Shown here in pieces: positions 6,347 to 20,313 of a stretch of 64,000 nucleotides of DNA (position 1 is the first letter of the stretch; each line of letters starts with the position of its first letter). Position numbers and translations under genes: made by a program. Source of the DNA: Myxococcales bacterium (GTDB lineage Bacteria; Myxococcota_A; Polyangia; Polyangiales; Polyangiaceae); contig SECP01000010.1 of assembly GCA_004193285.1 (NCBI GenBank), positions 1 through 64,000 of the forward strand, given 5' to 3'. Under the pieces are notes generated by a model. The model did not search any database. It was not told the DNA's origin and worked only from the letters and a program-made list of their open reading frames with translations.

Positions 6347-7261
6347 ATGTCGCTATACGGAGCGATCGAAGCCGGCGGTACCAAGTTCATCTGCGCGGTG
6401 GGAGACAGCCCGAGCGACTTGCGCGCGCACGCTCGCTTCCCGACGACCACGCCAGCGGAAACGCTCGGCAAGTGCATCGACTTCTTCAAGGCGCAGCCAA
6501 GGATCGAAGCGCTCGGCGTCGGCTGCTTCGGCCCCCTCGAGCTCCGGCGCGGCGCGCTCCGGTACGGGCACGTCACGACCACGCCCAAGCCGGGGTGGTC
6601 CAACGCGGACGTGGTCGGCCCCCTGAAGCGAGCGCTAAAGGTGCCGATCGGCTTCGACACGGACGTGAATGGCGCGGTGCTGGGAGAGGCGCGCTGGGGC
6701 GCGGCGCAAGGCCTGGATACTGCGGTCTACGTCACCATCGGCACTGGCATCGGCGGGGGCGCCTTGATCGACGGCGAGCTCGTCCACGGCCTCGTGCACC
6801 CGGAGATGGGCCACTTGTTGCTGCCGCGAGAGCCGGACGACGCTAGCTTCGCCGGGGCGTGCCCCTTTCACGGGGCGCGCTGTTGGGAGGGCCTCGCTTC
6901 GGGGCCGGCGCTGGAGCGGCGCTGGGGCGCTCGAGCCGAGACGCTGCCGCCCGAGCACCCGGCTTGGGATCTGCAGGCGCGCTACATCGCCTCCGCGCTC
7001 ACCACGCTGGTGCTCGTGCTCTCGCCGCAGCGGCTGATCTTAGGGGGCGGCGTGATGCAAGCGGCGCAGCTCTTCCCGCTCGCACGGGGGCACCTTCGGC
7101 GCTCACTCAACGGCTACGTGCAAGCGGAGGCGCTTGCGGCCGGTATCGATTCTTACCTCGTTCCTCCCGGGCTCGGTCAGCACGCGGGCATCGCCGGAGC
7201 GTTCGCGCTCGCGGAGCGCGCCGCGCAAGCACCGCAGACAGCGGCCCCGGACGCTCGCTAG
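6347..7261 (+). CDS. ROK-family fructokinase-type sugar kinase
   Basis: This 304-residue protein starts with the ROK phosphate-1 motif YGAIEAGGTKF. It continues with GVGCFGPLEL, FDTDVNGAVLGEARWG (catalytic Asp in DTDVN), VTIGTGIGGG and HPEMGHLLLPREPDD. The zinc-site segment CPFHGARCWEGLASGPA matches the fructokinase subgroup (ScrK/GmuE type), which phosphorylates fructose or a related hexose at the expense of ATP. The C-terminal LILGGGVM closes the ATP domain. It is a single gene with ATG at 6347. Its TAG stop interlocks with the stop of the convergent gene inside a shared CTAG at 7258-7261. Confidence 0.88.
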   Translation: MSLYGAIEAGGTKFICAVGDSPSDLRAHARFPTTTPAETLGKCIDFFKAQPRIEALGVGCFGPLELRRGALRYGHVTTTPKPGWSNADVVGPLKRALKVPIGFDTDVNGAVLGEARWGAAQGLDTAVYVTIGTGIGGGALIDGELVHGLVHPEMGHLLLPREPDDASFAGACPFHGARCWEGLASGPALERRWGARAETLPPEHPAWDLQARYIASALTTLVLVLSPQRLILGGGVMQAAQLFPLARGHLRRSLNGYVQAEALAAGIDSYLVPPGLGQHAGIAGAFALAERAAQAPQTAAPDAR

Positions 7262-12202: not shown

Positions 12203-12261
12203 ACCTTTTGCGCCGCAAGCCGGCCGACCCCCCAAAGTTCGTTCGTGACGAGATTCTCTCC

Positions 12262-14964
12262 GTGAAAAGCGCCGCTCTGTCCCGCACTGTCGGCCGCTTC
12301 GTGGACCTCCGCGCTGGTGAGGGTGTGGTCTTTTTGCGGGCTTTCTTCGTCCTGCTGCTCACGATCTCCGCCCATACGGTACTGGAGACCGCGCGGGACG
12401 CGCTGTTTTTGACCAAGCTGGCTCCGCGAAACCTGGCTTTCGTCTATGTCGCCACCGCGGTCTTCACGATTGCCCTCACGCCGCTCAGCGTGAGGCTGAC
12501 GCGCGCGGCCGGGAGCAAAAATGCGCTCGTGGTCTCGTTGCTGGTCTCGGCTTTCTCCGCGGCCTACTTCCGCATACGTCCGCCCGGCGCCGCGAGCGTG
12601 TTCAGCCTGTATGTGTTCGGCGCACTCTCTGCCACCGTCCTGGTCGGCCAGTTTTGGCAGCTCGCGGGCACCCTGTTCACCGCGGCGCAGAGCCGGCGAT
12701 TGTTCGGGCCACTCGCCTCCGGAGGCGTGCTCGGCGGCGTGGGTGGAGGCGCGGTCGCGGCCCTGCTGCTGCACGTCGTGCCCGTGCACGGCCTGCTCGG
12801 TGTCGCGTCACTGCTCTACTTCGCCTCTGCGCTCGTCGCGACGCAGCTCAACTTGGAGGACACGGTCGCGGCGAGCCCCGGGGGCCGCTTGGGGTCGAGC
12901 CCGACCGCGAGCCGAGCGCCGCTCGGCCCGCAGCTCTCCACGGTCCGTCACGACCCGTTCCTCATCCGCCTGGCGCTGATCGCGGCGCTCTCGATCGCGC
13001 TCTCGGTGGTGGTGGACTACCTGTACAAGGCCAAGGTCTCTCGGACCGTCGCGCCCGAGGATCTCGGTGAGTTCTTCGCGCGTTATCAGCTGGTGTTGAG
13101 CCTGGGGGCGCTGGTGCTGCAGCTGGCCATCACGGGCCCGGTGGTGCAGCGCGTGGGGGTCGTCGGCTTGGCGCTGACGGGGCCCTTGTTGCTGAGCGCG
13201 GGCGCCACTCTCACCGCGCTGCTGGGCGCACCATTTTGGATCGTCGTGCTGCTCAAGGGAACGGACACTTCGCTGCGCAACTCGCTCGGGCGCGTCGCGG
13301 GCGAGCTGCTTTGGGCGCCGGTGGAGCAGCAGGCCCGCGCGCGAGGTTTCGTGGATCTGGTCGTCACGCGCGTGGCGCAAGCGGTGGCGGGCGGCGTGCT
13401 GCTCGCGGCCACGATGCAGCGCGAGTTCCGTCCGGGCCACCTTGCCGCCACCGCCGCGACGCTGGCGGTGCTGTGGTTGGCGGTCGGCATCGGCATCAGA
13501 AAACCGTACATCGCTCTGTTTCGGCAGGCGCTCAGCCGCGGCAGTGAGGAACGCGAGTTCATGCTCGCGGAGCTGGACCTCACCTCGGTAGAGACGCTGG
13601 TCGAGGCACTGGCGCGGCCCGAGCCCGCCGAGGTCATCGCGGCGATGAACGTGCTCGCCGAGCGCAAGCGCGAACGCCTCATTCCCGCGCTGATTCTGCT
13701 GCACGGCGACGAGGGAGTGCTGCTGCGGGCGCTCGAGATACTGGGGCCCAGCAGGCGCCGGGACTGGTTCTCGCTCGGCGAGCGGCTGCTCAAATCACCG
13801 TCGGCGGCGGTGCAGCAGGCCGCAGTGCGCGCCTTCGCCCTCGCCGGCGAGGTAGACATCTTGGATCACGTGGCCGCGCACGGTAGCCCCGCGCTGCGCA
13901 CCTTCGCGACGCTGTACCTGGCGCAGCTGGGCGGGCACGTGATGGACGGCGACCCGCTCACCTGGCAGCTCTTCTCGGACGACGACGACGACCACTCATT
14001 GAAGCTCGCGTTCATCGAGTCGCTCGCCGCCCACCCGACCGCGGATACTCCGCGGCTGCTGCTCGCGTTCGCGCGCCTCCCTGCGCTGGCCAGCGCAGTG
14101 ACGGCGGCGCTCGAGACGGCGGCGGACGAAACTTGCATCGACTTTTTGATCGAGCGCCTGAAGCTCGCGGACGATCGCTTGTCGGCGCGGCGCGGGCTCG
14201 TGCGCATCGGCGCGCCCGCTCTCGAAGCGTTGTCGCGCGCGGTCACGGACCAATCGCTGGACCGGCGGGTGCGCATCCACGTGCCGCGCAGCATTTCTGC
14301 CTTCTTGTCGAAGGAGGCGCTGCACATCTTGCTGAAAATCGTGGTCGAGCACGAAAATGGGCTCGTGCGCTACAAGGCGCTCCGCGGCTTGGAGCAGATC
14401 GCGCTCGAGACATCGCTGCGCATCGAGCCGGGGCCCATCCTCCACGAAATCAACCGCAACGCGCTGGAGTACCTGCGCTTGTTCGCGGCCGAGCTCGCAC
14501 TCAAGAGCGACCGCGTCGCCGCCGCTAAGCTAGAGAGCCAGCTCGTCATCGAGCTCCTCGAGGATAAAATCGCTCAGTCGCGCGACCGGCTGGCGCGGCT
14601 GCTCCAGGTGCTGCACCGGGGCGACGACATCCCCGCCATCTTCGCGGCACTCACCTCACGGGACCGCCGGCGCCGCGGTCGCGCGGTCGAGTTTTTGGAC
14701 GCGCTCATCCGCGGGCTGGATCGCGCGGCGGACGAGGTAGCGCCGCTGCTCCGGCTCGTCGTGGACGACCTGCCGGACGAGCTCCGTGCGGAGCGAGCTC
14801 AGGAGCTGGTCGGCTCGTTCGTGGACGCGCGGGGCGCGCTCACCGCCTTGTCACGGGACCCGGACAGCATCGTCAGCTCGCTCTCCACCCGCGCCCTACG
14901 CGAGCTCGGCTCGCTGCCCCCGCCGGCGCCGCCGCTCGCGGTGCTCACGGAGCGACCCGCATGA
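12262..14964 (+). CDS. ADP/ATP-carrier-like (NTT/Tlc) transporter fused to HEAT-like repeats
   Basis: The GTG at 12262 gives 900 residues; an in-frame TTG at 12208 is the alternative. Residues ~20-430 are a polytopic membrane part with the look of the bacterial/plastid nucleotide-translocase family: VFLRAFFVLLLTISAHTVLE, FVYVATAVFTIALTPLSVRL, then LFGPLASGGVLGGVGGG and a GTDTSLRNSLGRV-type cytoplasmic loop. Residues ~430-880 are soluble helical repeats of HEAT type (EPAEVIAAMNVLAERKRERL and similar units). Canonical family members swap ATP for ADP, but members in free-living bacteria have unproven substrates. The gene overlaps the following cNMP-binding gene by 4 bp, so the two products are probably partners. 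A second family member lies at 18937-20313 in the converging operon. Confidence 0.8.
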   Translation: MKSAALSRTVGRFVDLRAGEGVVFLRAFFVLLLTISAHTVLETARDALFLTKLAPRNLAFVYVATAVFTIALTPLSVRLTRAAGSKNALVVSLLVSAFSAAYFRIRPPGAASVFSLYVFGALSATVLVGQFWQLAGTLFTAAQSRRLFGPLASGGVLGGVGGGAVAALLLHVVPVHGLLGVASLLYFASALVATQLNLEDTVAASPGGRLGSSPTASRAPLGPQLSTVRHDPFLIRLALIAALSIALSVVVDYLYKAKVSRTVAPEDLGEFFARYQLVLSLGALVLQLAITGPVVQRVGVVGLALTGPLLLSAGATLTALLGAPFWIVVLLKGTDTSLRNSLGRVAGELLWAPVEQQARARGFVDLVVTRVAQAVAGGVLLAATMQREFRPGHLAATAATLAVLWLAVGIGIRKPYIALFRQALSRGSEEREFMLAELDLTSVETLVEALARPEPAEVIAAMNVLAERKRERLIPALILLHGDEGVLLRALEILGPSRRRDWFSLGERLLKSPSAAVQQAAVRAFALAGEVDILDHVAAHGSPALRTFATLYLAQLGGHVMDGDPLTWQLFSDDDDDHSLKLAFIESLAAHPTADTPRLLLAFARLPALASAVTAALETAADETCIDFLIERLKLADDRLSARRGLVRIGAPALEALSRAVTDQSLDRRVRIHVPRSISAFLSKEALHILLKIVVEHENGLVRYKALRGLEQIALETSLRIEPGPILHEINRNALEYLRLFAAELALKSDRVAAAKLESQLVIELLEDKIAQSRDRLARLLQVLHRGDDIPAIFAALTSRDRRRRGRAVEFLDALIRGLDRAADEVAPLLRLVVDDLPDELRAERAQELVGSFVDARGALTALSRDPDSIVSSLSTRALRELGSLPPPAPPLAVLTERPA

Positions 14965-15920
14965 CCATCGCCGACAGCGCGCGTCTGAAGCGCGAAATCC
15001 TCCTTCGTTCGATGTTTCCGAGCATGCCGGTGGCGGCGCACGTCCGCTTCATCGAGCTGCTGGAGGACGTCGAGCTGGCCGCGGGCAAGGTCCTGTTCGA
15101 CGTGGGCGACCCGCCGGACCGCTTTCTCTTCTTGGTGGAGGGCCGCGTGACGATGGAGCGCCCGGGCGAGCGCGCTTGGGAGTTTGCCCCGCTCGCAGTC
15201 GTCGGGGTGATGGACGCGATCATGGAGCGACCGCGCACCCGAAACTGTCGCGCGCTCGAGCTCAGCCGCTTCCTCTCGCTCCGGATCGCTGACTGGTTCG
15301 ACATGCTCGAGGACAACGGGCAGATCGCGCGCGCCGCCATCCGCAACTTCGCGACCCAGCTGCACGGGCGCTGGCGCGAGCTGGCTCCCCGCGTAGAGCG
15401 GCAGAGCGAGCTCCCGCCGCCCTTGGCGACCGGCCCCATGGAGACCTACGACAAGATCCTCGCGCTGCGTCGCGCCGGGTTCCTCCGCTCCGCGGGCATG
15501 CAAGCGATCGCGAGCTTGGCGACGGTGGCGGAGCCGCTTCACCTTCGAGCGGGCGAGACGTTGTTCGAGCTCGGCAGCGACGCGGAGATGCTCTACGTGC
15601 TCACGCGCGGCAGCATCGAGCTGACCGCGCCGGGCGATTTTCGATACACGCACCGGCGCGGTGACTTGGTCGGGGGAGCGGCGGCCTTCTGCCACGCGCT
15701 CCCGGGCTACGCCGCGCGAGCCCTCGGCGACGCGACGTTGCTCTGCATTTCCGAGCAGGACTTCTACGATCAGGCGGAGGAGCACGGGCGGCTCACCCGC
15801 GGCACCCTCAAGTACCTGATTTCAGAGCTCGAGCCGCTCCTGGAGGTCGACGAATCCTCGGCCTCGACGACCTCCGCGCCGATGGCGCTGCGCCCGCCTC
15901 AGGTCACTTCGGGCGCTTGA
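14961..15920 (+). CDS. Protein with two cyclic-nucleotide-binding-type domains
   Basis: This 319-residue protein has no membrane segment or DNA-binding motif. Two CAP_ED-like beta-barrel domains are seen. The first spans ~residues 20-135 (LLEDVELAAGKVLFDVGDPPDRFLFLVEG). The second spans ~165-290 (TVAEPLHLRAGETLFELGSDAEMLYVLTRG, then HRRGDLVGGAAAFC). The second keeps the G-E-x-L-F-x-x-G entry but the phosphate-binding cassette (GELALL-type) is poorly kept in both, so nucleotide binding is unproven. It is translationally coupled to the transporter-HEAT gene (ATGA overlap at 14961), which suggests it gates or senses for that protein. Its last 17 bp overlap the convergent lipoprotein gene. Confidence 0.78.
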   Translation: MTIADSARLKREILLRSMFPSMPVAAHVRFIELLEDVELAAGKVLFDVGDPPDRFLFLVEGRVTMERPGERAWEFAPLAVVGVMDAIMERPRTRNCRALELSRFLSLRIADWFDMLEDNGQIARAAIRNFATQLHGRWRELAPRVERQSELPPPLATGPMETYDKILALRRAGFLRSAGMQAIASLATVAEPLHLRAGETLFELGSDAEMLYVLTRGSIELTAPGDFRYTHRRGDLVGGAAAFCHALPGYAARALGDATLLCISEQDFYDQAEEHGRLTRGTLKYLISELEPLLEVDESSASTTSAPMALRPPQVTSGA

Positions 15921-17595
15921 GCGCCTCGGGCCGCTCCACGCCCGCGAGGCGGTACCCGCTCGTTCCCTGATCGTACAGGTGGACGCGCAACGGACCGGGC
16001 GCGTACCCGTTCGTGATGTCCAGCACCACGTAGCGCTCCGGATCCTCTGCGGGGACCGAAGGCGGGAGGGCGCGGTGCGGTATATCCACGCAGACGTCTG
16101 GTGCGGCGACGCGGCGAAAGCGAGGCTTGCCCGCCGGCTCGAGATCGGCGCCGCGGTAGAGGTACGCGCGAAACGACATCTCTTCGTTCGGCACGATGCC
16201 GGTCGCACGCGCGAGATCCACGCCGCAGACGCCCTCTTGGTTCGCGCTGATGCGCCCGATCGGCGACACCTTCGCGAAGTAACGCTGCAAGATGGCGCGC
16301 CGACGCGCGATGAGCGTCTCGGTCAGGTAGCGCTCGCTGATGGTGTCGTACTGGCCAACCTTGACCACGGCCGTCGTGAGCTCGTCGTCGAAGCCGGCGA
16401 GGATGCGCGCCATCCACGCGCCGTCCTGCTCCGTCATGCGCATGAAGGCAGGGTTCGGGTACTCGCCGCGCCATTCTTGCGGATCGAAATCACGCGCGCT
16501 GAAGTAGCCGAAGATGCCGCCCGTGAGGCGCGCCTTTTCCCAGGGCCGCTCGATGGTGCCGAGGGTGATGAAGTCCTCACCGACGTGACCGCCGTCGAAG
16601 ATGTACGAGTTACCCAGGCGCCGGGAAATGCCGTCTACCGCCCACTGGCTGCCGAAGCAGTCACCCATGTCGATGATGTAGTGGCGGACGTAGCCCGGGC
16701 CGTCTTTGCGACCTTTTTCCGCGGGCAAGAACACGTCCATCGTGTTCTGCTCGCGGCTGTCGAAATGGTTGAGCCACGCGGCGACGAGCCTGCCCGCGCG
16801 TACCTCACGCCGGTCCTCGTGGGGAATGACGTCGTTGGGGTCGTCGTCGCGGGTGCCCTCGTAGCGATAGGGACCGATCGGTTTGCCGGGCAGCCACGAC
16901 GAGGCGACCATGCGAACGAGGCCGTTGCGGTGCGAGGCGGTCTTCAGGACGGCACCGAGAGCGGCTTCATCGAACGGGCGAGTCACGCCCTCGTTGTTGG
17001 TGACGGTGAGCCCCGGCTTCAGCTTCAGTAGCGAAGGGCGGAAGTACACGACCGTATCGCACGCCGAGTAATAGCCGACCGCGTGGTAGACGCGGGAGGC
17101 GATCGCGGTGGCACCGGTGGCGCGGTCCGGCGCGTCGTCGGTGTCTACCTTCAGCATGAACTTGCCGAGGCCTTCGATGTTGACGCGGAAGCCCGGGTTG
17201 GCGCCGTTGTCCTTCCCCTTGTCGATCGTCCACGTCCCATCCGGGGCGTTCGGGTCCAGGACCGCGTCGTCGCACGCGCCGCGCGTCACTTCTTCTGCGG
17301 TCATGCGCCGCACGCCGAGACGATTCTCGAACCAGCTGGAGTCCGGCACTTCGTCCAGCGCGTTGACGTTCGTGGCCGCCCCCGCCGGGTCCACCGCGAA
17401 GAAGCGGGAAATCGGGTGGAATACCATGTAGTTCGCGCCGTCCCAAGCGAACGGGGAGTAGTACTCCTCCGGAGCGGCGGCGAACGGCGCATCGTCTGCA
17501 TCGCGAGTGAGCGGCGCCTTGAGGGGGAAGCGCGCGGACGAAGCGCAGCCGACGAGCGCCAAAAACAGCAGACCGAATCTAAGCTTAGAAGCCAC
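15904..17595 (-). CDS. Lipoprotein with kinase-like catalytic constellation, unknown family
   Basis: This 563-residue protein has signal peptide MASKLRFGLLFLALVGC, lipobox LVGC and lipidated Cys17, so it is exported. I see a protein-kinase-like set of residues: a candidate ATP lysine in KFMLKVD (K149), a catalytic-loop-like HFDSREQN (H277, D279, N284) with the exact HxDxxxxN spacing of HRDLKPEN, and a DFG-like DMGD (D309) after a basic strand YVRHYIID. The wide lysine-to-Asp distance recalls HipA/PI4K-like kinases. I recall similar hypothetical lipoproteins in Acidobacteriota-type genomes. It is the last gene of an operon with an Omp85 barrel and a carrier-type transporter, overlapping the barrel gene by 11 bp. 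Kinase activity is inference; the lipoprotein call is firm. Confidence 0.72.
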   Translation of the reverse strand: MASKLRFGLLFLALVGCASSARFPLKAPLTRDADDAPFAAAPEEYYSPFAWDGANYMVFHPISRFFAVDPAGAATNVNALDEVPDSSWFENRLGVRRMTAEEVTRGACDDAVLDPNAPDGTWTIDKGKDNGANPGFRVNIEGLGKFMLKVDTDDAPDRATGATAIASRVYHAVGYYSACDTVVYFRPSLLKLKPGLTVTNNEGVTRPFDEAALGAVLKTASHRNGLVRMVASSWLPGKPIGPYRYEGTRDDDPNDVIPHEDRREVRAGRLVAAWLNHFDSREQNTMDVFLPAEKGRKDGPGYVRHYIIDMGDCFGSQWAVDGISRRLGNSYIFDGGHVGEDFITLGTIERPWEKARLTGGIFGYFSARDFDPQEWRGEYPNPAFMRMTEQDGAWMARILAGFDDELTTAVVKVGQYDTISERYLTETLIARRRAILQRYFAKVSPIGRISANQEGVCGVDLARATGIVPNEEMSFRAYLYRGADLEPAGKPRFRRVAAPDVCVDIPHRALPPSVPAEDPERYVVLDITNGYAPGPLRVHLYDQGTSGYRLAGVERPEALKRPK

Positions 17596-18940
17596 GGCGC
17601 GCTCCTAGGGCGATGCGCAAGGAATCTATCTTGCCGCCGCTCTCGAAGGTTTCACTACCAAAACCGATGACCGCCTGAAACACGCTATCGCGCGAGCTGT
17701 TGCTCTCGATGCCGAGGGCGGCGGAGAGACGATTGCGCTCGGCGCGAAAGCCGCTCAGGTGCTCGCCGAACACGTTGCCGACGGCGCCTTGCAGCGAGCC
17801 GTTCAGCCAAATCCAAATCGGCCAAGAGTAGCGCAGGGTCGCGACCACCGCGCTCCGGTCGTAGAGACGCCCAGGGCGAAACCCGGGCATCAAGTCCGTG
17901 CCGCCGAGCGTCACCAGCTCGGTCAGAGGTACGGGGCGCTGCCCGAGCTGGTCCGACATGATGGTCGTCAGTGACAGGCCCAGCACGCGACCGCTGTCCC
18001 CCAAGTCCAAGAAAGCGCCGACCGAGCCGCTGTAGCGAACCCAGCCGGAGGTGGGCGAGTTCTTCAGGTCCACCCCTTGCTCGCCCGTCAGCTCGGCACG
18101 AAAACCGGTCGCGGAGCCCTTCGGATCGCGCGAATCCAGGATCAAGCGACCGCGACCGAAAGGCGCGCGGTAACCGTCCTTGAAGCCGGGCGGGTAGGGG
18201 ATACGGCCGGCGGCGGCCTCCTCGACGACCGAGGGCTGGTAGGAGTCGCGACCGCGGTTGACCTCGTCGAAATCCGTATCGTGGAAGGAGTAGCCGCGGT
18301 AGCCCGCGCCGGCCTCCACCATGCTGCTGCTCCAAAAGCCGGCTCGGACGTCCGCGCGCGCGTCGACCCAGTCTGCGCGGTAGCGCATCAAGTCGTTCTG
18401 ATGGGAGTCCGGGCCGATGCCGAAGAAGGCGTAGTCCGGCCGGCGCGTGGCGATCGCGTTGAGCGTGATGTCCGCCCGCTCACTGAAGACGAACCGCTCC
18501 GTCGCGGCCCCGGACAGCCAGCTCGGACCCCACGTGGATCCGCGCAAGCGCAGCTGGTGACCTTTGAAGCCAGCGTCGTCCCAGAACGCGTACAGGCCCA
18601 CGCTGGGCTTGAAGCCGAACTCCAGGAACGCGAACGGCACCACGCCGGCGGAGTGATCGGGGCCGAACGCAAAGAAGTCGTAGAGCGCGGCCGGCAGCTC
18701 CGCCTTCTCCGCAGCCGTGATGGCCGCCCCGAGGGGACGGCGGATCACGAACTCGCTCACGAAATAGAGCGGAGAGAGGAGAATGCGCGGCACCCAAAGC
18801 GCCTTCTGGCCTGGGGTCTGCGGGGCGCCTCCGCGGCCGTCGTAGTCCGGCAGCCGACGCTTTTGCTGCTCTTCCGCCTGCGCCGATGGCGCGGCCAGCG
18901 CGGCGGAAAGACAGAGCAGCGACAGTAGAGCGCGCTTCAT
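17585..18940 (-). CDS. Omp85/BamA-type outer-membrane barrel (surface antigen)
   Basis: The ATG at 18940 gives 451 residues with signal peptide MKRALLSLLCLSAALAAPSAQAE. The C-terminal half has the Omp85 signature TLGGTDLMPGFRPGRLYDRS (compare the LGG-x-x-x-x-R-G-F motif that lines the pore), followed by VATLRYSWPIWIWLNG and a terminal LRIALGARRGF strand. Other barrel strands include GRLILDSRDPKGSATGFRAELTG. No POTRA domain is obvious: the N-terminal ~100 residues are short, so it looks like a small TamA/PNPLA-type barrel rather than BamA itself. It is coupled by ATGA to the upstream transporter and by an 11-bp overlap to the downstream lipoprotein, which may be its cargo or partner. Confidence 0.8.
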   Translation of the reverse strand: MKRALLSLLCLSAALAAPSAQAEEQQKRRLPDYDGRGGAPQTPGQKALWVPRILLSPLYFVSEFVIRRPLGAAITAAEKAELPAALYDFFAFGPDHSAGVVPFAFLEFGFKPSVGLYAFWDDAGFKGHQLRLRGSTWGPSWLSGAATERFVFSERADITLNAIATRRPDYAFFGIGPDSHQNDLMRYRADWVDARADVRAGFWSSSMVEAGAGYRGYSFHDTDFDEVNRGRDSYQPSVVEEAAAGRIPYPPGFKDGYRAPFGRGRLILDSRDPKGSATGFRAELTGEQGVDLKNSPTSGWVRYSGSVGAFLDLGDSGRVLGLSLTTIMSDQLGQRPVPLTELVTLGGTDLMPGFRPGRLYDRSAVVATLRYSWPIWIWLNGSLQGAVGNVFGEHLSGFRAERNRLSAALGIESNSSRDSVFQAVIGFGSETFESGGKIDSLRIALGARRGF

Positions 18941-20313
18941 GTGCCGAGCTTCTCCTTTCGCTCTTCCAAGCCGTGATACAGCCGCCCGATCGCGATCGCG
19001 AGGAACAGCCAGCAGCCCGCCAAGATGATGCTGAGCCAAGCGAAAGTCGGCACGGAGAACTTCAGGAAATCCACGAGCAGGAACACGGACGCGGCCGAGA
19101 AGACGTCGCCCATGCGCACGCAGAAGGTGTCCACCACCTGCTTCGCCTTGTATTTCATGTCCGGAGAGGTCACGAGCCAGAGCATTTGCTTGAGGGTATT
19201 GTTGAGCGAGTAGTCGATCGCGTTCTCCGCGCCCTTGCCGATCTTGGCGACGAACGGCACGAACGCGAACAGGAACCCGTTCGTCAGCGCGAGCGCGGGC
19301 ATGAACAAGAAAGCGGCGGGGAGCTTGAGCCAGCGCACCACGCGCGACACCACGAAGGTTTGCAGCACGACGCCGGCCACGTTCACGTAGAAGAAGAAGT
19401 CCGCGTAGGCGGCGCCGATCGCGCTGCCCTTGTCTTTGGCCGCGAGCTTCCCCTCTTTGATGAGGCCGAGCGCCTCCTCCTGAATGACCCGGCTGAGCAT
19501 GTACTCGCCGTTGCTGTTGACCCAGTTGTAGATCAGGGCGAACAGCGCGATGAGGAGGAGGTAGCGCTGCCCCAGGACCAGACCGAAACCGCCTTTTTTC
19601 GTCTTCTTTTCGTCGCCCTCGGCGCGGCTCGCAGGCGCTTTTTCCGTAGGGTTGCCTTCGCGCCGCTCGACTAGGTAATAGAGCCCTGCGCACAGCACGA
19701 GTAGGCCCGCCGCCACGAGCAACATCGTCGGCTCGCCCAGGCCGTTGATCAAGAACTTGGCACCTTTGCTCCCGACCGCCGCCCCCACGGAGGCGCCGAT
19801 AGCGACCATCGGGAACAGACGATCGCCCTGCTCTTTTTCGTACAGGTCGTTGGCGTAACCCCAGAACTGCGCCACCACCATGACGTTGAAGATGCCGACC
19901 CACACGTAAAAGACGTACCCGAGATTGTCTTTGAGGGCGGGGATCGCGATCGCGACGTAGAAGAGGAGCAGCTGAGCGGCGAAGGCCAGGCTCACGCCGA
20001 TGACGAGCTTGATGCGCGGCAGCGCGTCCACCAGCTTGCCGTACGCAGGGACGAGCGCGAACAGCAGCAGGGCGATCGCGCCGCTGAGGTAAGACTTGTA
20101 CTCCGCCCCCGAGTCCTTCGCCAAAATGAGGTCCTCGCGGAGCGGCTTGAGGACGTAGTAGGCGCTAAGCAGCAGGAAGACGTTGGCGGTGAGGAGGAGC
20201 GCAGTGACCGCCTCTCCCGGGTGAACGTCCGTGACGAGCCGGAGCGCGCGGGCGAGCCAGGCGGGTTCTTGCTTTTTGGATTCGGGTTCGTTCAAGAGGG
20301 TCTCGAGCCGCAC
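18937..20313 (-). CDS. ADP/ATP-carrier-like (NTT/Tlc) nucleotide transporter
   Basis: This 458-residue inner-membrane protein has about 11-12 helices. The family entry motif is clear: LLLTANVFLLLSAYYVLKPL followed by REDLILA. Further matching segments are FNVMVVAQFWGYANDLYEKE followed by GDRLFPMVAIGASVGAAVG, then ALIYNWVNSNGEYML and the late NAIDYSLNNTLKQMLW. These are hallmark blocks of the nucleotide translocase superfamily found in plastids and energy parasites and also in free-living bacteria. Substrate in free-living members is not established. It starts the operon transporter - Omp85 barrel - kinase-like lipoprotein. Its start lies only 64 bp from the divergent tex gene, so both promoters sit in 20314-20377. 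Confidence 0.83.
   Translation of the reverse strand: MRLETLLNEPESKKQEPAWLARALRLVTDVHPGEAVTALLLTANVFLLLSAYYVLKPLREDLILAKDSGAEYKSYLSGAIALLLFALVPAYGKLVDALPRIKLVIGVSLAFAAQLLLFYVAIAIPALKDNLGYVFYVWVGIFNVMVVAQFWGYANDLYEKEQGDRLFPMVAIGASVGAAVGSKGAKFLINGLGEPTMLLVAAGLLVLCAGLYYLVERREGNPTEKAPASRAEGDEKKTKKGGFGLVLGQRYLLLIALFALIYNWVNSNGEYMLSRVIQEEALGLIKEGKLAAKDKGSAIGAAYADFFFYVNVAGVVLQTFVVSRVVRWLKLPAAFLFMPALALTNGFLFAFVPFVAKIGKGAENAIDYSLNNTLKQMLWLVTSPDMKYKAKQVVDTFCVRMGDVFSAASVFLLVDFLKFSVPTFAWLSIILAGCWLFLAIAIGRLYHGLEERKEKLGT

Follow-up and report, generated by a model that had tools for sequence, protein, structure and literature searches.

We have found, in a stretch of 64,000 nucleotides from a Myxococcales bacterium (assembly GCA_004193285.1, contig SECP01000010.1, positions 1 to 64,000; hereafter the window), a lipobox protein, P0001, which has a predicted kinase fold and a conserved active-site set. 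Its gene is genetically bound to that of an Omp85-type outer-membrane barrel (P0002), and often to genes for a nucleotide translocase (NTT, here P0003), for an NTT fused to HEAT repeats (NTT-HEAT, P0004) and for a protein that binds cyclic nucleotide monophosphates (cNMP; P0005, with cyclic nucleotide-binding domains, cNBD). The reading that we prefer, and to which we give slightly better than even chances, is that of a cell-envelope phosphorylation cassette, in which nucleotide supplied by the NTT would be used by the exported kinase lipoprotein at the Omp85 barrel.

The kinase-fold lipoprotein family

P0001 is encoded on the minus strand at 15904–17595, and the initial annotation had taken it for an exported kinase-like lipoprotein on the basis of several motifs. 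All of these are present in the protein: the lipobox Cys17 (codon 17545–17547), K149 in KFMLKVD (17149–17151), D279 and N284 in HFDSREQN (16759–16761 and 16744–16746) and D309 in IDMGD (16669–16671), all read on the minus strand. The export of P0001 is read from the lipobox pattern. In sequence comparisons, P0001 has no Pfam or NCBIfam match, and none of 47 members of the lipoprotein family matches a Pfam kinase family at an E-value of 0.1 or better; membership of HipA_C, CotH or Fam20C has been rejected in all the 47 at the same threshold. When P0001 alone and the family profile were compared with the sequences of PDB chains, the best value was 0.12, for an unrelated protein, and the CtkA and HipA kinases remained unmatched.

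The kinase fold emerges from structure prediction. The AlphaFold2 model of P0001, calculated with the 47-row alignment, has a pLDDT of 93.4 and a pTM of 0.92, and a Foldseek search of the PDB with this model puts CtkA first (probability 1.00, E 2e-3) and also lists HipA, Fam20, PI4K and PI3K. Judged by title, the best 50 of the 604 PDB fold matches are kinases, pseudokinases or kinase-holding complexes, including a pre-ribosome chain (6rbd_l) that is presumably a Rio kinase. Compared with viral fold models, the lipoprotein has matched phage and giant-virus kinases, plus uncharacterised or otherwise named viral proteins. According to the DSSP assignment of the model, K149 closes strand 144–149, which is followed by helix 158–173; helix 268–275 leads to D279 and N284, i.e., the putative catalytic-loop Asp and Asn, and to strand 285–291; and strand 301–307 is followed by D309 as the DFG-like Asp. 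That is, in the model the four residues are placed in the kinase order of secondary-structure elements, with the Lys in beta3 and the last Asp after beta8. Both the PDB matches and this order along the chain agree with what had been claimed for the lipoprotein, and P0001 is confidently predicted to have the two-lobed fold of the protein-kinase-like superfamily.

Among 188 genomes of the phylum, 21 have given a match to the lipoprotein when the protein was the query and 23 when the profile was used; a few of the matches are short pieces. The 47-row alignment consists of P0001 plus the 46 relatives in which the match covers 300 residues or more; shorter pieces and identical copies are excluded. 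Of the 47 rows, 41, 41, 40 and 41 have K149, D279, N284 and D309, respectively, and 44 have the lipobox Cys. All six losses of K149, D279 and D309 fall in one fully supported clade (L055, L056 and L074–L077), which has none of the four residues; the other clade, of 41 rows, holds them in 41, 41, 40 and 41 rows, with Ser in place of N284 in L060. The six-row pseudokinase clade retains all the 13 columns that are invariant across the 47 rows. It has a barrel gene in five of its six loci and a nearby NTT in none, compared with 23 of 52 other loci (Fisher p 0.07); this absence proves little, since the clade represents one event. A second genome group, the phylum of G189, may have been split off from the former Myxococcota. 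Among its 117 genomes, 9 match the lipoprotein, 6 of them over most of its length, and all of the 12 loci read retain the lipobox Cys as well as the four residues. The conservation that was expected of the four residues is thereby confirmed, and a chance match of the motifs is ruled out by this conservation together with the predicted fold. Overall, these kinase-fold lipoproteins constitute a new family, which includes an inactive sister clade.

Linkage of the lipoprotein gene to barrel and carriers

In the window, the NTT-type carrier gene P0003 (18937–20313) is the first of a three-gene unit on the minus strand; it overlaps the barrel gene P0002 (17585–18940) by 4 bp, and the latter overlaps P0001 by 11 bp. 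The three overlapping genes at 15904–20313 had been described in the initial annotation, and both the coordinates and the overlaps are present in the sequence. The named composition is right as far as it goes, but the cluster is bigger: two genes of the plus strand at 12208–15920, which had gone unmentioned, converge on the unit, namely the NTT-HEAT gene P0004 (12208–14964, start codon uncertain) and the cNMP-binding gene P0005 (14961–15920), which overlaps the 3' end of P0001. The same partners recur at other loci. A known defence system was considered and rejected, with PADLOC giving nothing for P0001–P0004 and, for P0005, only TIR-effector models that match the cNMP-binding region.

For the linkage count we have used 58 of 63 loci, five (L015, L073, L079, L159 and L163) having been dropped beforehand as pieces or copies; L003 nearly duplicates the window (92%). 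As gap lengths we have taken the distances between stop-to-stop open segments, and the true gaps can be somewhat larger. A barrel gene stands beside the lipoprotein gene in 52 of the 58 loci (in one case on the other strand), and an NTT or NTT-HEAT gene lies within 2.2 kb in 23 of the 58, so the barrel is a tighter partner of the kinase than the NTT. All of barrel, NTT, NTT-HEAT and cNBD are present in seven of the 58 loci, as in the window. If only the loci with at least 5 kb on both sides are considered (n = 33), an NTT-family neighbour is observed in 19. The position of the NTT gene varies among loci, being upstream, downstream or on the other strand, and most of the deep branches within the active clade carry NTT-linked rows, the branch of L047, L060 and L073 and the row L017 being without them. 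Varied gene order together with such a spread is the pattern that selection for keeping the parts together gives, kinship being uncorrected here.

The same association is seen at the level of genomes. In G177, a single genome that was chosen because it is one contig, four of the five NTT-family genes are located within 6 kb of two of the four kinase genes, for which random placement gives a probability of ~1e-8. A close NTT, defined as at least 100 bits in the search with P0003, is found in 15 of 17 genomes with an active kinase (listed by hand) and in 18 of 171 others (Fisher p 2e-11, kinship ignored). The two active-kinase genomes without a close NTT are G111 and G081, the latter with a partial NTT (71.9 bits) where a contig ends. 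G070 and G079 were counted as lipoprotein-less despite short weak profile matches, and G079 carries a kinase-barrel fusion elsewhere. In the source genome, the P0003 search has picked out, besides P0003 itself, one further protein, P0004, and the two lie in this cluster. From the linkage counts and the placement in G177, chance neighbours are ruled out.

Certain genomes have multiplied the lipoprotein gene. G149 and G177 contain six and four paralogues, respectively (L048–L054, L057, L058 and L078), and 8 of these 10 loci are without an NTT-family gene in the stretch examined. The source genome itself has a divergent paralogue (L047, 6608–8347, contig C33), with its own barrel and no nearby NTT. 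A neighbour that recurs in 12 lipoprotein loci belongs, by eye, to a Hanks-type kinase family; genes of this type are numerous in myxobacteria.

That P0002 is an Omp85-like barrel is borne out through its homologues, though P0002 alone stays below the curated cut-off (E 0.005, 16.8 bits against a cut-off of 24). PF01103 is matched by 19 of 23 homologues at E 0.01 or better (best 6e-13), the family profile matches BamA barrels, and the N-terminus of P0002 is signal-like by eye. No POTRA domain has been matched at E 0.01 in the 23 family members, which sets them apart from Omp85 proteins of the BamA/TamA type.

The assignment of P0003 as a clear NTT-family member stands as well. P0003 matches PF03219 (6.3e-7, 29 bits, cut-off 21) and also MFS_1, and 20 of 21 homologues match PF03219 at E 0.001 or better. 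The profile of these 21 sequences can be aligned nearly over the full length with the solved structures of CpNTT1 (9j3n, 1e-36) and AtNTT1 (9j3j, 1e-30). In P0004, HEAT_2 (PF13646) is matched at 8e-12 and the N-terminal part is matched by P0003 at 1e-8; PF03219 itself gave no match to P0004 in the Pfam scan. With the HEAT repeats of P0004 and the two PF00027 stretches of P0005 (6.5e-23) encoded side by side, and with linked homologues at other loci, this pair has the make-up of an NTT-HEAT carrier with an adjoining cNBD protein.

A kinase-Omp85 fusion and other NTT loci

To provide a control, we have inspected NTT genes located elsewhere than beside the lipoprotein gene, including seven stretches with weaker NTT or NTT-HEAT matches (L106–L112). 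In L106, L107 and L111, the NTT gene stands beside a gene for a protein of 800–900 amino acids, with an N-terminus that is signal-like by eye and an Omp85-like C-terminus (E 4e-6 for L106). Together with a further locus, such kinase-Omp85 fusion genes next to an NTT are located at 7178–9934 of L106, 7334–10129 of L107, 2808–5165 of L111 and 6689–9346 of L188. PF01103 is matched in three of five members. The N-terminal 484 residues are predicted to have a kinase fold (model pLDDT 82.8), with fold matches to CtkA (3e-6), CotH (2e-5), a Golgi casein kinase (5e-5), PI4K (7e-5) and HipA (1e-4); with Fam20C, the matches range from 3e-6 to 1e-3. A GDxDRHxxQ...DRD motif is invariant in all of the eight fused kinases. 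Sequence comparisons give much less: CotH of Pfam is matched in one of five members, weakly (E 0.18), the best match of the fused-kinase profile among PDB sequences is unrelated (0.06, CtkA being at 0.59), and hhalign finds between the lipoprotein family and the fused kinase a weak C-terminal helical match alone, with a probability of at most 12%. The fused kinase is like the lipoprotein in predicted fold but hardly in sequence, and should represent a second, apparently exported, envelope kinase family.

Of the eight fusion loci, an NTT adjoins in L106, L107, L111 and L188, and the last three have NTT-HEAT and cNBD genes too, the NTT-HEAT gene of L111 being cut by the contig end. No NTT was found in more than 6 kb on each side in L189 and L190, nor in the shorter stretches of L164 and L165. 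That is, a kinase with an Omp85 barrel, in one gene or in two, recurs with the same carriers.

A different neighbour is observed at NTT loci of genomes that lack the lipoprotein. In 7 of 18 close-NTT loci of this kind, a protein of one family with PPDK_N and PEP-utilizer domains is encoded within 2.6 kb of the NTT gene on the opposite strand (L083 9539–12952, L085 9453–12527, L086 345–3443, L087 2–3049, L089 5134–8109, L091 970–4806 and L092 3536–6796). A Pfam check of five of the seven has given 3e-31 to 4e-38, and by eye all five have a signal-peptide-like N-terminus. In L085 and L088, proteins of the beta-lactamase2 type adjoin the NTT.

Possible supply of nucleotide to the cell envelope

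Each part of the cluster is of a known fold or family, and the composition as a system appears to be new: among the matches listed in a search of the open-licence literature, there was no description of an exported kinase with NTT carriers or of a kinase-Omp85 pair. The nearest relatives in fold are CtkA and HipA (3akl, 4pu5), with Foldseek probability 1.00 to CtkA, and the DxxxxN spacing of the catalytic loop in P0001 is as in HipA. Unlike these, P0001 is a lipobox protein of ~560 amino acids with extra regions, and its gene is not part of a toxin-antitoxin pair. Fam20C and CotH (4kqa, 5yh0, 5jda) are kinases of a secretory or exported setting; Fam20 is among the fold matches of the lipoprotein, and both are among those of the fused kinase. 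The lipoproteins differ from them in lacking any such Pfam match and in the outer-membrane context and carrier genes of P0001. For the carriers, the portions consulted of Major et al. (2017, PMC5381601) describe NTT-HEAT with a cNBD gene next to it, its function being left open, and report NTT genes as widespread in free-living bacteria with roles likewise left open. P0003 is an NTT, and P0004 followed by P0005 has the same order of NTT-HEAT and cNBD, but those portions of the paper contain no mention of exported kinases or Omp85 barrels. Similarly, Omp85 proteins without an N-terminal domain ('noNterm') are known from the consulted text of PMC4104836, as are enzyme-bearing ones such as PlpD. 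The barrels here resemble them in being POTRA-less or joined to an enzyme; the partner here has a kinase fold, and the word 'kinase' is absent from the main text of that paper.

Based on the above analyses, the preferred phosphorylation cassette would work as follows. The NTT and NTT-HEAT in the inner membrane would move nucleotide into the periplasm, most likely ATP outward in exchange for ADP or another nucleotide, and P0005 may be a regulator that perhaps tunes these carriers. The lipoprotein, anchored in the outer membrane next to the barrel, would phosphorylate or nucleotidylate a substrate of the envelope. As the second family fuses an apparently exported kinase to such a barrel, the barrel is more probably an anchor, or a route by which the lipoprotein or its product is exported, than a mere substrate. 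The recurrence of kinase and barrel with NTT genes supports the idea of an envelope kinase fed with ATP. A wider proposal, which we put forward tentatively and at somewhat less than even chances, is that a dedicated NTT and a cNMP-regulated NTT-HEAT export ATP to the periplasm for three recruited phosphotransferases, i.e., the kinase lipoprotein with Omp85, the kinase-Omp85 fusion and an exported enzyme of the PPDK type.

Several observations weigh against this picture. As to the enzymes, Foldseek gives modest E-values for the lipoprotein (best 2e-3, none at or below 1e-3) and low TM-scores, and the fold of the fused kinase is derived from eight sequences. Kinase-fold proteins can also run other chemistry; some such enzymes nucleotidylate rather than phosphorylate. 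As to the linkage, all the counts ignore kinship, and 14 of the 33 well-flanked kinase loci have no nearby NTT-family gene (six loci of G149 and G177, one paralogue each of G107 and the source genome, and three loci each from the pseudokinase clade and the second group), which means that a local NTT is not obligatory. The co-occurrence of lipoprotein and transporter, which had been named initially as a check, holds, then, in part: the 23 of 58 loci are far above chance, but these 14 lack it. Four of the seven stretches with weaker NTT matches have no kinase. The seven PPDK loci are all arranged alike and may go back to a single event; 11 of the 18 close-NTT loci have no such enzyme in the stretch (L084, L088, L090 and L094 being short stretches); and among eight further NTT loci in lipoprotein-bearing genomes, seven have the NTT wholly alone and the eighth, L103, has only NTT-HEAT and cNBD besides.

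As to the substrate of the carrier, K155, E245, E385 and K527 of AtNTT1 matter for transport according to the parts consulted of PMC4256464 and PMC3306366. We have mapped them to P0003 by eye on the printed profile alignment, with one constant offset. E385 aligns with E270, which is E or D in all of the 21 sequences. E245 corresponds to G140 and K155 to S77, with K73 four residues off; at the position of K527, P0003 has D403, and 3 of the 21 sequences have K. With one of the four charged residues of the ATP/ADP-exchanging subgroup in place, P0003 falls outside that subgroup by this measure, and ATP as its substrate is not assured. On the other side, the consulted part of PMC4256464 describes microsporidian NTTs with changes at three of the four positions and states that substrates are unpredictable from sequence, so the residue set is not decisive. 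The P0003-type carriers belong to the NTT family, and their substrate cannot be called from sequence.

The main rival takes the kinase lipoprotein and the barrel as the functional pair and the NTTs as general importers for nucleotide or NAD salvage, linked to the pair by a shared scavenging regulon in predation or starvation. It would account for the barrel linkage being tighter than that of the NTT, for the NTTs that stand alone, for the poor retention of the ATP/ADP-carrier residues in P0003, and for the pseudokinase clade with its barrels and no nearby NTT. Plain salvage does not predict that NTT, NTT-HEAT and cNBD recur beside the kinase-barrel fusion, nor that NTTs lie near the PPDK-type enzyme, and we consider this rival rather unlikely, though it is the strongest of the alternatives. 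The pseudokinase clade also speaks for another possibility, in which the lipoprotein is a non-catalytic scaffold or chaperone of kinase fold for outer-membrane insertion or surface export through Omp85: the six rows have lost the four active-site residues and keep the 13 invariant columns, with a barrel in five of six loci. A scaffold would not keep the active-site residues, and their near invariance in the 41-row clade and in all 12 loci of the second group makes this role improbable for the family. There is equally little chance, in our estimate, that the kinase acts on a lipid or glycan (lipid A, capsule or undecaprenol) instead of a protein, perhaps with phosphate donors other than ATP. 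PI4K and PI3K, which are lipid kinases, are indeed among the fold matches of the lipoprotein, but the linkage to NTTs points to a nucleotide as the donor, and no lipid or glycan gene has been recognised among the recurrent neighbours, some neighbour families being unidentified.

The periplasm is generally regarded as free of ATP, and chemistry driven by ATP in this compartment is therefore unexpected. Golgi Fam20C kinases have a lumenal ATP supply. If the supply of ATP by these carriers is true, bacteria would have in this system an equivalent of those Golgi kinases, contrary to the view of an ATP-less periplasm. The locus offers one testable answer both to this view and to the open roles of NTTs in free-living bacteria, and one member of the lipoprotein family (L013) is from Sorangium cellulosum So ce26, which makes experiments possible. 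As this cluster of a soil bacterium suggests, phosphorylation fed with ATP may, in some bacteria, take place outside the cytoplasm.

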